A DNA stretch of 64,000 bases from Planctomycetaceae bacterium. Lineage in GTDB: Bacteria > Planctomycetota > Planctomycetia > Planctomycetales > Planctomycetaceae. The notes below the pieces were generated by a model, which saw only the letters and a program-made list of their open reading frames with translations, had not been told where the DNA came from and made no database searches. Shown here one piece after another: positions 43,979 through 54,175 of this stretch (position 1 is its first letter; each line of letters opens with the position of its first letter). Location: NCBI GenBank assembly GCA_002724315.1, contig PBOJ01000072.1, forward strand, positions 1-64,000, written 5' to 3'. The translations under genes were made by a program, and so were the position numbers.

Positions 43979-46537
43979 CTACGTGTCGATCCAGTCGGGT
44001 AGGAACTCGTACAGCTCGTCGATGATTGCCGTCTCGTCATCCACGACGTCCTGTCCGTCGCCGGCGGCAATCGTGTCGTCCCCACCTTGTCCTCGCAACG
44101 TGTCGTCCCCTTGGTTCCCCAGGGCCACGTCGTTGCCAGATCCTCCCAGCAGCCGATCGTTGCCGGATCCACCGATCAACGAATCCGTTCCCGAGGCGCC
44201 GATCAGTATGTCGTCGCCGAACAGGCCGACAAGTTGGTCGTTTCCGATGCCGCCATCGATCCGATCGTTCCCGGCTCCACCACTCAGCGAATCGTCGCCG
44301 GTTCGGCCCAGCAACGAATCGTCGTCGTTGCCACCGTCGAGCAGGTCGTTTCCGGTGCCACCGATCAGCGTGTCGTTCCCGGCGGTGCCCAGCAGACTGT
44401 CGCTGCCGCCGCCGCCAGAGAGCCAGTCGGCTCCGCCGCCACCCTCGAGCAGATCTTGGCCTGACCGACCGTGCAACTGGTCGGCCGCTGTTCCACCCCG
44501 CAGGGTGTCGTTCCCGGACCCGCCGATCAGCGTGACCGGACCCGAGAATCCCGAGGCGTCGAGAATGTCGTCGCCGTCGCCGGTCTTGATCCTCGCGGTT
44601 TCGACGCTGACCAGGTCGCGGATCCCGGCTCCCTGAAGTTCTCCGTCGATCAGTACAGCGTTGCCGTCAATCAGTTCATCAACGCGATCAAGGCCGGGTC
44701 CGCCGTCGAGATGGTCGCTGCCGGAGTGTCCCCGAAGGCGGTCGTCGCCGTCGCCGGCTTCAAGCTGGTCGTTGCCGGCGCCGCCGTCGAGTTGGTCATT
44801 GCCGTCCCCGGCGGCCAGCGTGTCGTGTCCGGCTTGTCCACGGAGCACGTCGGATCCGTGTCCGGAACTGATCAAGTCATTGCCTCCGCCTCCGAAGATC
44901 CGGTCCGCACCGCTTCCGGATCGCAGCGTGTCGTTGCCGCCGGATCCGTTGATGGTCACGGCCCAGTCGACCGCTTCGGTGTTGATGAGGTTGGGCGAGG
45001 AGCCACCGCTCAGCTGAGCCGACTCGATTCCGATGAGTTGATCGATTCCGAGACCATCGAGGGAATCGGGCTCGAGCGTGAAGTCGGTGTCGGCCCATTC
45101 GTAGACGCGATCGTACCCCGATCCGCCGTTGAGCGTGTCGAGACCGGGGCCGCCCTGCAGCACGTCGCCGCTGCTGCCCTGTCCATGGACGGAATCGTTG
45201 CCCAGCGATCCGTCGAGGGTGTCACTGCCTCCGCCTCCCCGCAGCGTGTCCTGGCCATCCCCGGCAGACAGTACGTCATCGCCGGAGTTGCCATTGAGAA
45301 CGTCGGAACCGGAACCGGTCATCAGCGTGTCGGAGCCGGCGCCACCGACCAGCGTGACGTTGCCGGTGAAGCCGGTGGTGTCGATCCGGTTTCCATCGAC
45401 GCCTCCACTCAGCTGTGCGTATTCGAAACCGACCAGCAGATCGTTGCCGAGGCCTGTCATCAGCGAGTCGGACAGCGTGAAATCGATGTTGGCCGTTTCC
45501 GAGACGACGTCCAGGTCGTTTCCTCCGACCAGCAAATCGTCACCATCGCCACCGGTGACCGAGTCGTGTCCGGCTTGTCCATCGATGGAATCGTTTCCGG
45601 ACAGGCCGTCGAGCGAATCTTGTCCGTCTCCACCCTCGATGTGATCGTTTCCGTCGTCACCGGTGACGGCGTCGTCACCGGAACCGCCCAGCAACACGTC
45701 GTCTCCACCGTTGCCCGAGATCGAATCGTGTCCGCTGCCACCGTCGATGGCGTCCGCTCCCTCAGTGTCCGGGACACAGGAGGTTTCCGGAATGCACTCA
45801 TCGTCGGAGACGCCACCGCGGAGAGTGTCGTTGCCCGCATCGCCCAGGATGGTGTCGTCATCCAGGCCCCCGTGTGCCAGGTCGCGGCCGGTGCCTCCCT
45901 CGATTCGGTCGTTACCACCACCACCAAGCAGTGAGTCCTCGCCGGCGTCCCCGTAGATCAGGTCGTCGCCGTTGCCGCCGAAGATGCGGTCGTCGCCGTC
46001 GTTGCCGTAGATCAGGTCATCGCCGGAACCGCCGTCGGTGCGATCGCCGTAGATCAGGTCGTCTCCCGGGCCTCCGGAGATCGCGTCGATTCCGTTGCCG
46101 GCCTCGATGGTGTCATCGAAGCCACTGCCGACGATCGTGTCGTGGCCGCTGCCGGTCGTGATGACCAGGCTGTCGGGCTCGCCGGAGAAGGACGGGAACG
46201 TGAGTTCGTTGACGTTGGAGAGGTTGATCGCGTCGTCACCGCCCCCGGTGGTGATCGACATGGTGTTCACCAGTTCAGCCGAGACTACTTCACCCGTATC
46301 TGTGACTAACGTACCCCAGCCAACGACTCCGACCACCCCGTTGGAGCCAACCTGAACGACGATCGTGGTTGCGGCGTCGTCAGTGGTGAACTCCAGGTGG
46401 CCGGTCCCGGAATCGTAAGCCCAGAGCAGGGACAGGAGCGTGCGATCTTCGAGCGATTCGATGACCGGAACCAGCGGCAGGCGACGACGGTTTCGCCGCG
46501 CGCGACGAGAGAGTGTCAGCCAGGACGGCAACTGCAT
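43979..46537 (-). CDS. RTX-like calcium-binding repeat protein with LEPR-XLL-type N-terminus
   Basis: The 852-residue protein has a basic N-terminus (RRARRNRRRL) followed by VIESLEDRTLLS, an LEPR-XLL-like motif found at the start of many planctomycete surface proteins. From about residue 150 to the end it is almost entirely nonapeptide RTX repeats of the GGxGxDxLx type (for example GGSGNDTLRGG), which bind calcium and form beta-rolls. Four spacer segments with an E(T/Y)AQLSGG-like pattern interrupt the repeats. There is no C-terminal enzyme domain and no type I secretion gene nearby. It is likely a secreted adhesin or surface structural protein. Confidence 0.9.
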   Translation of the reverse strand: MQLPSWLTLSRRARRNRRRLPLVPVIESLEDRTLLSLLWAYDSGTGHLEFTTDDAATTIVVQVGSNGVVGVVGWGTLVTDTGEVVSAELVNTMSITTGGGDDAINLSNVNELTFPSFSGEPDSLVITTGSGHDTIVGSGFDDTIEAGNGIDAISGGPGDDLIYGDRTDGGSGDDLIYGNDGDDRIFGGNGDDLIYGDAGEDSLLGGGGNDRIEGGTGRDLAHGGLDDDTILGDAGNDTLRGGVSDDECIPETSCVPDTEGADAIDGGSGHDSISGNGGDDVLLGGSGDDAVTGDDGNDHIEGGDGQDSLDGLSGNDSIDGQAGHDSVTGGDGDDLLVGGNDLDVVSETANIDFTLSDSLMTGLGNDLLVGFEYAQLSGGVDGNRIDTTGFTGNVTLVGGAGSDTLMTGSGSDVLNGNSGDDVLSAGDGQDTLRGGGGSDTLDGSLGNDSVHGQGSSGDVLQGGPGLDTLNGGSGYDRVYEWADTDFTLEPDSLDGLGIDQLIGIESAQLSGGSSPNLINTEAVDWAVTINGSGGNDTLRSGSGADRIFGGGGNDLISSGHGSDVLRGQAGHDTLAAGDGNDQLDGGAGNDQLEAGDGDDRLRGHSGSDHLDGGPGLDRVDELIDGNAVLIDGELQGAGIRDLVSVETARIKTGDGDDILDASGFSGPVTLIGGSGNDTLRGGTAADQLHGRSGQDLLEGGGGADWLSGGGGSDSLLGTAGNDTLIGGTGNDLLDGGNDDDSLLGRTGDDSLSGGAGNDRIDGGIGNDQLVGLFGDDILIGASGTDSLIGGSGNDRLLGGSGNDVALGNQGDDTLRGQGGDDTIAAGDGQDVVDDETAIIDELYEFLPDWIDT

Positions 46538-51707: not shown

Positions 51708-52445
51708 TCAGTCCGGAAGAAGTGACCCGTCATGCAGGGCCGACGCGACCAGTACGGCGTCGGCACCGGCGCGGGTGGCATCGGAAATGTCTTGGGGCCC
51801 GCGAATGCCGCCACCGGTGATCAGTTCGATCCCGCCATGACGACTGCGAATCCGCCGACACAGCTCCAGCGTGGGGGGGCCACTGCCGGTGCCGACCCCC
51901 GCCAAATCGAGCACGATCAGGCGAACCACGCCCGCGTCGATCACCGAATCGGCGATCTCGACCGGTGTGGATTCGGACCAGTCGCCCGGATGGGCCATCG
52001 GAACGCCCTGTTTCAGGTCCAGGCTGAAGACCAACGTCTCGTTGCCCACGGCCTGCACCAGCTCCCGCACGAGTTCGGGACCGGGCACGGTCTCGAGCCC
52101 GGCGACGACCGTCTCGACTCCCCGTTCGACGAGGTCACGGGCTCGATCGACGTCACGGAGGCCCGCGTCGACCATCAGCCGGTGCCCGGCCCCGGTCAGC
52201 CGTTCTATCTCGTTCCACGCGGGCTGGTTGTTCTCGATTGCGTCGAGGTCGGCGAGGTAGATGCGGTCGAGGCCCAGTTGGCTGGCGAAGGCGTCGGCGA
52301 TTTGGAGCGGATCAGACGAGTCGGCCAGACGGCTGGTGATCGGCTGGTATGACTCTCGTTGGCCGGCGATGCCACGAACCACCCGTCCTCGCATCAGGTC
52401 GAGCACCGGGATGATCTCGGCTGTCGACCGCGCCGGAGAAGTCAC
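51708..52445 (-). CDS. HisA/HisF-related TIM-barrel protein
   Basis: The 245-residue protein is a paralogue of HisA: IIPVLDLMRGRVVRGIAG at the N-terminus, LYLADLDAI-like strand (RIYLADLDAIEN) and GGGIRGPQDI with a phosphate-binding loop later. The GQRESYQPI segment replaces the usual HisA sequence and resembles the HisA/HisF-related family known from methanogens and methylotrophic or planctomycete genomes. No histidine gene is nearby, so it is probably not the histidine enzyme. It starts at GTG 52445, overlapping the kinase stop by four bases. Confidence 0.75.
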   Translation of the reverse strand: MTSPARSTAEIIPVLDLMRGRVVRGIAGQRESYQPITSRLADSSDPLQIADAFASQLGLDRIYLADLDAIENNQPAWNEIERLTGAGHRLMVDAGLRDVDRARDLVERGVETVVAGLETVPGPELVRELVQAVGNETLVFSLDLKQGVPMAHPGDWSESTPVEIADSVIDAGVVRLIVLDLAGVGTGSGPPTLELCRRIRSRHGGIELITGGGIRGPQDISDATRAGADAVLVASALHDGSLLPD

Positions 52446-54175
52446 GGGCTGACCTGTTGCTGAGGAGGTGAGCCGGAGGTGCGGTGGAGTCCGACCTGAC
52501 GATTCTCGGAGGAGGGATCGGGCACGGATGCCTCGACCGGATCGGTGTGTTGCACCGGGATGCGGATGGTGAACGTGCTGCCTTTGCCGAATTCGCTCTC
52601 CAATAGCACGCTGCCACCCAACAGCCGGGTGAGTTCCTTGACGATGGAAAGTCCGAGTCCGGTGCCTCCGTACTCGCGGGTCATCGCATCCTGCTGCCCG
52701 GGGAGTCCACTCCCCTGGCGGAACTTCTCGAAGATCGCCTCCTGGTCGTCCAGTGGGATCCCCACGCCGTTGTCTTCAACCAGCAGGTCGACCTGGCGGG
52801 CGTCGTGAGACTGGCCGCTGACACGGACCCTCCCCCCCTCGGGGGTGAACTTGATGGCATTGGAGAGCAGGTTCAGCAGGATCTGTTCGAGCTTGCCGAT
52901 GTCCTGGAACAGCAGGGGGCAGTCGGGATCGAAGGCGGACACCACGTCGATGTTCTTCTTTTCGGCCAACGGAGCAATCGAGTTGACCAGTCGATCGATC
53001 AGGTCACCAAGCGAGAATTCCACGGCGTGGACCTCCATCCGTCCACTCTCGATCTTGGCCAGGTCGAGAACGTCGTTGATCATCGTCAGCAAGCTCTGTC
53101 CCGAGGACTGGATGTTTGAGACGTACCGGTGCTGTCGATCGTCCAGGTTGACGGCTGCGGCCAACACGTCGCTGAAACCCAGGATGCTGTTGAGCGGAGT
53201 CCGCAACTCGTGGCTCATCGTGGCCAGGAACTCGTTCTTGAGGTTGTTCAATTCGTAGAGTCGCAGGTTGACCTGGGCCAACTGGTCGATCTTGTTGTCC
53301 AGGTCGTTGTTGACGTCCTGGAGTTCGTCCTGGATCGTCACCAGGTGGCGGAGCATCCGGTTGAACGCATGGCTGAGTTCTTCGAATTCGTCCCCGGTAC
53401 GAATCTCGGCCCGCATGTCGAGATTGCCCTGGGCAATGGCGTCGCTGACTTTCTTCAGGTGCATCACCGGTTTGGTGATCACGTAACGGACGATCACGTA
53501 GATGGCCAAAATCGCCAGCACGACCTTGACGAACTCGGCCGAGATCACGAACGCGAAAACGCGGTGGATCGAGGCCCGGGCCTGTTCGAGCGGCATGCTG
53601 ATCTTGACCACCCCGATCAGGTCGCCGACCTGAAGGTTGGCGACTTTTGAGAGCGACCGGTGGCATTCGATACAGGACTTTTCGGCGACGATGCCGGAAT
53701 AGAATTGGTACTCGCTCTGTTCCGACGATTCTCTCTCGACCTCGCGAACGATCTCCAGGGGCTGGTCGGGAGCCTCCTTGAACATCCGGTTGAGCTCGCG
53801 CGCCATCTCGTACCCCTTGGGATCGATCGGGCGATCGGTGGGTGAGCCGGCGGTCGACGGATCGGGGCTGAACAGCTCGAACCGAAAGTCGGACAACTGC
53901 TCGGGAAGCGTGTCCTGGACCATCTCTTCGATGGTCTCGCCAAACGGTTTCATCTCCTCGTCCTGGTCCCATTTCCAGTGGTGGGCCAGGATGATGGCGG
54001 GGATCATCTGTCGGGCGGCCTGGCGGTTGCCTTCCGAGACCAGGTCGGATGTTTGCCACCAGTAGAGGGCAAAGGTGATGGTGGCCAGGACGGTCAACCC
54101 GAGACCGAAAAGCACCAGGCTCTTCAACTCGAAGTTCGTTTCGCCCATCAGGCGTTTGATCGTCCGGTACGACAT
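52442..54175 (-). CDS. Heme-sensor histidine kinase (Tll0287-like sensor, HAMP, HisKA, HATPase)
   Basis: This 577-residue membrane kinase has a first helix at about 20-42 and a periplasmic sensor with a CxxCH heme site (KSCIECHRS, about residue 168), fitting the DUF3365/Tll0287-like family. A second helix at about 205-232 leads to HAMP (about 235-290) and a coiled coil. The phospho-acceptor is in SHELRTPLNS (about residue 321), and the ATPase has NLLSNAIKFTPEGG, VEDNGVGI and YGGTGLGLSI. There is no receiver domain and no response regulator beside it. It is translationally coupled to the HisA-like gene. Confidence 0.9.
   Translation of the reverse strand: MSYRTIKRLMGETNFELKSLVLFGLGLTVLATITFALYWWQTSDLVSEGNRQAARQMIPAIILAHHWKWDQDEEMKPFGETIEEMVQDTLPEQLSDFRFELFSPDPSTAGSPTDRPIDPKGYEMARELNRMFKEAPDQPLEIVREVERESSEQSEYQFYSGIVAEKSCIECHRSLSKVANLQVGDLIGVVKISMPLEQARASIHRVFAFVISAEFVKVVLAILAIYVIVRYVITKPVMHLKKVSDAIAQGNLDMRAEIRTGDEFEELSHAFNRMLRHLVTIQDELQDVNNDLDNKIDQLAQVNLRLYELNNLKNEFLATMSHELRTPLNSILGFSDVLAAAVNLDDRQHRYVSNIQSSGQSLLTMINDVLDLAKIESGRMEVHAVEFSLGDLIDRLVNSIAPLAEKKNIDVVSAFDPDCPLLFQDIGKLEQILLNLLSNAIKFTPEGGRVRVSGQSHDARQVDLLVEDNGVGIPLDDQEAIFEKFRQGSGLPGQQDAMTREYGGTGLGLSIVKELTRLLGGSVLLESEFGKGSTFTIRIPVQHTDPVEASVPDPSSENRQVGLHRTSGSPPQQQVSP

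Follow-up and report, generated by a model that had tools for sequence, protein, structure and literature searches.

An Orf17-type HisA paralogue, predicted to act in methylofuran biosynthesis, overlaps a predicted heme-sensor kinase gene in a planctomycete

Results and discussion

A kinase gene and a HisA-like gene overlap by four bases

The window, that is, the whole 64,000-nucleotide stretch of Planctomycetaceae DNA analyzed here, contains two overlapping genes on its minus strand. The upstream member, which is read first, encodes a CxxCH sensor histidine kinase of 577 amino acids (52442..54175, minus strand; ATG start, from the list of open reading frames), and the downstream member encodes a HisA-like protein of 245 amino acids (51708..52445, minus strand; GTG start) that matches PF00977 with 141 bits. 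The overlap is a GTGA (52442..52445, minus strand), in which the stop codon of the kinase gene and the GTG start codon of the downstream gene share bases. The original prediction, which was made from the DNA alone, had described a CxxCH kinase overlapping a HisA paralogue by four bases, and the open reading frames, their coordinates and the GTGA agree with it. It had further stated that no response regulator is adjacent; consistent with this, Pfam scans of 18 proteins encoded from 42.0 to 64.0 kb of the window (8 proteins at E<=1e-3 and 10 at E<=1e-4) found no response-regulator or receiver domain. The same region encodes an 852-aa protein (43979-46537) with 15 stretches that match RTX calcium-binding repeats.

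The HisA-like protein belongs to the Orf17 family

The PF00977 match, the clade into which it falls, the gene order in relatives and the predicted fold all identify the HisA-like protein as an Orf17-type HisA paralogue, predicted to function in methylofuran biosynthesis. The source genome encodes four strong PF00977 proteins, and the tree and family scans assign the three outside the window to HisF (contig C102), HisA (contig C37) and an AglZ/HisF2-WbuZ-like protein (contig C83); HisA and HisF are, therefore, encoded by separate genes. The AglZ/HisF2-WbuZ-like protein (L003:1501-2178) scores 288 bits on its model, for which the cut-off is 310. The best NCBIfam model for the window protein is TIGR00734 (hisAF_rel), with 115.2 bits, which is under the curated cut-off of 179.85 and within the range of six proteobacterial members of its clade (81.7-117.1 bits); this cut-off is passed by one of 14 control genomes. 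On the HisA model TIGR00007 the window protein reaches 99.6 bits, far under the cut-off of 228.95.

In a tree of 77 sequences, 37 planctomycete and eight proteobacterial Orf17-type proteins group in a single clade (100/99) that excludes HisA and HisF, with a warning from the program that long branches meet between the planctomycete and proteobacterial sides. The tree and the residue count below take 37 of the 38 planctomycete sequences, that of G009 being left out since it was not called as a gene; the A1 alignment uses 27 of the 38, and L105 gave no HisA/HisF row. The predicted fold is a HisA barrel (model pLDDT 95.2), which superposes on the HisA-type isomerase 4u28 with a Z score of 28.8 and an rmsd of 1.9 over 222 residues.

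The active site is altered throughout the family

Residues were counted in 45 Orf17-type sequences against 11 HisA and 20 HisF sequences, with one AglZ/HisF2-like row excluded. The window protein resembles HisA/PriA in its fold, in D16 and D143, both of which are kept in the 45 aligned Orf17-type proteins as in HisA, and in the GG of the C-terminal phosphate loop, but it differs at several positions of the active site. Among these is the column of the catalytic aspartate, given as D176 for Salmonella HisA in PMC9088769. This column is Asp in all 31 HisA and HisF sequences (11 of 11 for HisA alone), and it is Val in 44 and Ile in one of the 45 Orf17-type proteins, the residue in the window being Val184 (codon 51894..51896, minus strand). 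The same match of Val184 to the catalytic aspartate is seen in the alignments, where it corresponds to position 179 of chain 5g4e; this we take to be D176 plus a three-residue duplication, from the relatives of that entry.

The remaining differences lie in and around the loops. Asp93 (codon 52167..52169, minus strand) replaces the first glycine of the GGG loop, being present in 45/45 Orf17-type proteins where HisA and HisF have Gly in 31/31, and Glu118 (codon 52092..52094, minus strand) is a family-specific acidic residue in the next loop (45/45 Orf17-type proteins and 0/31 HisA/HisF). Arg30 and Tyr33 are likewise invariant in the family and new relative to HisA and HisF, whereas positions 234-238 are partly HisF-like (A234-S/T235 and H238). 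D93, E118, R30 and Y33, which are invariant, and V184, which occurs in all but one protein, are the residues that separate the Orf17 family from HisA and HisF. The loops that carry Asp93 and Glu118 are presumably, from structural work, the N-terminal phosphate-holding loops of HisA and HisF. Judged from the sequences, the Orf17-type proteins would retain one phosphate site and have turned the other one acidic.

Genomic and genetic links to methylofuran

Methylofuran carries the formyl group in H4MPT-linked formaldehyde oxidation. In Methylorubrum extorquens, deletion of orf17 abolishes methylofuran and a plasmid copy restores it, while methenyl-dH4MPT remains in the mutant (PMC8141765). Orf17 is thus essential for methylofuran in that organism and yet has so far no place in the pathway proposed in PMC8141765, and this is why the planctomycete data matter; our literature search found no later assignment beyond that article. 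H4MPT genes of planctomycetes have been published since 2004, as indicated by a title cited in PMC8141765.

M. extorquens Orf17, a PF00977 protein with the archaeal homologue MJ_0703, occurs alongside separate HisA and HisF proteins, as does the window protein, which likewise co-occurs with mch, mfnB, mfnE and mfnF and shares its clade with proteobacterial cluster proteins; the link to M. extorquens Orf17 runs via these related proteobacterial genes and not via its own sequence. In Azoarcus, Azospirillum, Aquabacterium and Thiodictyon, the Orf17-type gene is plasmid-borne and points away from an ATP-grasp gene, which is followed by an mfnF-type hydantoinase gene, and fae, mch, a RimK-type ligase gene or mfnB is located nearby. 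This order is found in four of the five proteobacterial regions (8-10 kb flank), the ATP-grasp gene being absent from the Phyllobacterium region, and it recurs in 3 of 38 planctomycete contexts; two further contexts have only the divergent ATP-grasp gene. The window gene differs in having no C1 cluster around it and a kinase gene directly upstream. Most planctomycete orthologues, like the window gene, are beside no C1 gene. Location in a C1 cluster, which is usual for the proteobacterial genes, is treated here as typical rather than defining.

The original prediction had proposed a search of the genome for tetrahydromethanopterin genes, and both mch and methylofuran genes are indeed present elsewhere in the source genome. 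mch, mfnB and mfnF score over their curated cut-offs and mfnE-, mfnD- and myfB-like genes under theirs; mch and the myfB-like gene lie at a contig end, the mfnE-like gene is convergent with mfnB, and mfnF lies with the mfnD-like gene. On contig C17 (L143:6791-9414), hisI and hisG directly precede the mfnE-like gene, and the 3' ends of the mfnE-like gene and mfnB overlap. This his-mfn neighborhood occurs in 6 of 21 loci (the source genome, G001, G002, G011, G017 and G009), although in the G009 locus hisG is more distant and hisI was not detected. It may link histidine genes to methylofuran genes in a way that goes beyond the HisA paralogue, or it may be chance.

Orf17 follows mch and mfnB, with exceptions

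Among 40 relatives, the source genome included, the HisA-like gene was found in 38 (E below 1e-19), mch in 38 and mfnB in 36. A search of 393 planctomycete genomes (minimum completeness 90) for Orf17, mch and mfnB found all three genes in 89, Orf17 and mch in one (G290, in 360 contigs, where mfnB was not found), Orf17 alone in one (G236), mfnB and mch without Orf17 in 12, mfnB alone in five, mch alone in one (G015) and none of the three in 284. The Orf17 carriers number at least 91, seven candidates having been scored in each genome and all candidates in 22 genomes, mostly those without Orf17 or with discordant gene content. The match in G236, which has neither mch nor mfnB, is weak (99 bits) and may be a false positive. 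A third PF00977 protein is present in G403 and G238, and the third PF00977 match in G289 may stem from a single gene split in two. Next to mch in G157 lies a protein with a GXGXG domain, which we read as FhcC-like.

mch is present in 90 of these 91 carriers, and the proposed tie between the HisA-like family and methanopterin-type C1 metabolism is to that extent borne out; it can be drawn more sharply, however, because the known requirement in PMC8141765 is for methylofuran and not for methanopterin. In G015, a single-contig genome (loci L126:4299-5936 and L083), mch is present and mfnB, mfnF and Orf17 were not found, a pattern of gene loss that fits a methylofuran role for Orf17. Conversely, Orf17 was not found in 12 of the 101 genomes with mch and mfnB, and mfnF is present in each of the 12. 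Around mfnF in these genomes (L166-L177), no Orf17-like gene was detected with a fresh Orf17 profile, whose single match was the known copy in the control genome G370, and no candidate for a replacement enzyme was found. These 12 genomes are the chief result against a strict need for Orf17; the protein is dispensable or replaced there, and a strict co-dependence with mfnB is ruled out. G015 and the twelve genomes with mch, mfnB and mfnF but no recognizable Orf17 provide handles on the role of this protein.

The kinase is a predicted member of the heme-Cache family

Pfam scans characterize the kinase as a membrane histidine kinase of the sCache_heme type (Tll0287-like), with an N-terminal sensor, HAMP, HisKA and HATPase_c, and no receiver domain. 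The match to PF11845 (Tll0287-like) is close to the cut-off of 24.1, with 22.6 bits for the full-length protein and 24.5 for residues 1-232, and the kinases of 22 of 23 relatives match PF11845 at E<=0.01. The sensor contains a CIECH motif at residues 168-172 (53660..53674, minus strand, as calculated from the residue numbers), which is a predicted site of heme c attachment. CxxCH is found in 24 of 25 relatives and the sensors contain no other cysteine in 24 of 25; the kinase of G015 has CFRSCH (CxxxCH) in place of CxxCH. A second histidine of the sensor, His66 (codon 53978..53980, minus strand), is invariant in all 23 kinases of the A2 alignment, which uses 23 of the 25. From these residues we infer a covalently bound heme c with His172 as the proximal ligand and, possibly, His66 as the distal one. 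The original prediction of a heme sensor thus stands as a prediction, which the CIECH motif and the near-threshold PF11845 score favor.

The domain has been defined as sCache_heme (DUF3365/Tll0287, PF11845) in a preprint, which describes a signaling member without an axial cysteine that binds NO tightly (PMC12889525). The window kinase is similar to this family in its CxxCH, in its membrane sensor with HAMP and kinase modules and in the absence of a third cysteine from the sensor, but differs in its weak Pfam score, its invariant His66 and its longer sensor, and NO binding is a prediction in its case. With the kinase, the family of this February 2026 preprint gains a planctomycete branch that is marked by an invariant second histidine. 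For the structural model of the sensor (pLDDT 79.4), Foldseek ranks GSU0935 (3b42) third with an E value of 0.011, which does no more than suggest the Cache/PAS-like fold known from GSU0935 and Tll0287; the heme ligands of GSU0935 are Met60 and His144 (PMC8396549).

The pairing is confined to two genera

Although the kinase gene occurs in 38 of the 40 relatives, it touches the HisA-like gene in only four (G000, G001, G002 and G011), which belong to two genera. The GTGA overlap is kept in all four and is, therefore, no quirk of one assembly; the flanking sequence has diverged, and identity across the touching pairs is as low as 61% for the Orf17 proteins and 79% for the kinases. That four genomes have retained the GTGA may point to a benefit of the coupling. 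G020 has one opposite-strand gene between the kinase gene and the HisA-like gene, with the RNase D gene next in line, as it is in the window; the pair may have come about when an intervening gene was lost.

Elsewhere the kinase gene keeps other company. fpg (mutM) is within 5.5 kb of the kinase gene in 9 of 25 loci, a count that includes the window and the related loci L045 and L055. It lies directly upstream of the kinase gene and on the same strand in five loci (L123, L125, L130, L131 and L134), and in a sixth with one small predicted open reading frame in between; in the window it is on the opposite strand, beyond the RNase D gene. The overlap is thus a genuine trait of this lineage, while neither family as a whole shows it. 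A general sensor-enzyme pair is ruled out beyond the two genera. The original prediction had named lack of conservation in relatives as an outcome that would refute it, and this is what is seen outside these genera. The further suggestion of redox or gas sensing linked to a small-molecule pathway has the shared gene order as its one supporting observation. Since it is restricted to a few close relatives, the pairing looks recent rather than like a general sensing circuit.

Proposed roles and alternative explanations

Taken together, we consider it likely that the HisA-like gene is the planctomycete orthologue of Orf17 and not a ProFAR isomerase, that its product acts in the synthesis of the methylofuran core, and that its pairing with the kinase gene is an accident of gene order. 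The kinase would most likely sense NO or the redox state outside the cytoplasmic membrane via its covalent heme c and signal to a response regulator encoded elsewhere. A rearrangement in the ancestor of the two genera would have made the kinase and Orf17 genes neighbors, and, given the GTGA overlap, the two genes are probably co-transcribed, with translation of the HisA-derived barrel enzyme coupled to that of the kinase. The orthology, the gene content, the phyletic link with its exceptions, the residue changes and the limited conservation of the pair are results of the comparisons made here; the enzymatic step, the heme ligation, the signal, co-transcription and translational coupling are proposals. 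The HisA-like protein enlarges a methylofuran family that has been described but not yet explained, the kinase is a new addition to the recently described heme-Cache family, and the pairing is local.

The reaction of Orf17 can be proposed only tentatively, and the following scheme has a low probability. The HisA barrel may have turned to a substrate with one phosphate and an amine, in which case the retained C-terminal site would bind the phosphate and the Asp93/Glu118 pair would hold the amine, and Val184, with the acid lost, would rule out the HisA reaction. Of the compounds in the pathway, [5-(aminomethyl)furan-3-yl]methyl phosphate or the aldehyde from which it is made matches this description, and Orf17 would therefore carry out or assist the step between MfnB and MfnE. 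We know of no bacterial enzyme identified for this step.

Two other functions can be considered for the HisA-like protein. The shared fold (Z 28.8) and the conserved D16 and D143 would be in keeping with a further ProFAR isomerase in this genome, or with a HisA that has gained another activity. However, the source genome already has HisA and HisF, the score on the HisA model is less than half the cut-off, the catalytic aspartate is a valine and acidic residues occupy phosphate-loop positions, all of which make such an isomerase extremely improbable. A role in methanopterin synthesis, or in some other ancillary task of C1 metabolism that is dispensable in certain lineages, would account for the 12 genomes in which mfnB is not accompanied by Orf17 and for an occurrence of Orf17 that tracks mch almost as well as mfnB. 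Against it, M. extorquens without orf17 makes methenyl-dH4MPT but no methylofuran (PMC8141765), and G015 keeps mch and has lost Orf17 together with mfnB and mfnF, so we regard this role as unlikely, and a function in methylofuran synthesis as the better reading.

A similar weighing applies to the gene pair. In a dedicated circuit, the heme kinase would sense NO or redox state and coupled translation would keep the methylofuran enzyme in step with it, so that formaldehyde oxidation tracks the supply of electron acceptors. Such a circuit would explain why the GTGA has survived in four of four genomes despite the sequence divergence of both proteins, and the NO-sensor properties reported for the sensor family (PMC12889525, preprint) would suit it. 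But the pair is limited to 4 of 40 relatives, the kinase and Orf17 genes each have other neighbors elsewhere, no receiver gene is found among the 18 scanned proteins around the pair, and the kinase is also encoded in G033, a genome for which the searches detected neither mch nor mfnB nor Orf17. A dedicated circuit is, accordingly, improbable, and an accident of gene order that was kept by the overlap is the more likely origin of the pairing. Elsewhere in the source genome, contig C160 encodes a single-domain response regulator (L145:11995-12396; PF00072, 83 bits) about 2.7 kb from mfnF and the mfnD-like gene, which is a possible partner for an orphan kinase.
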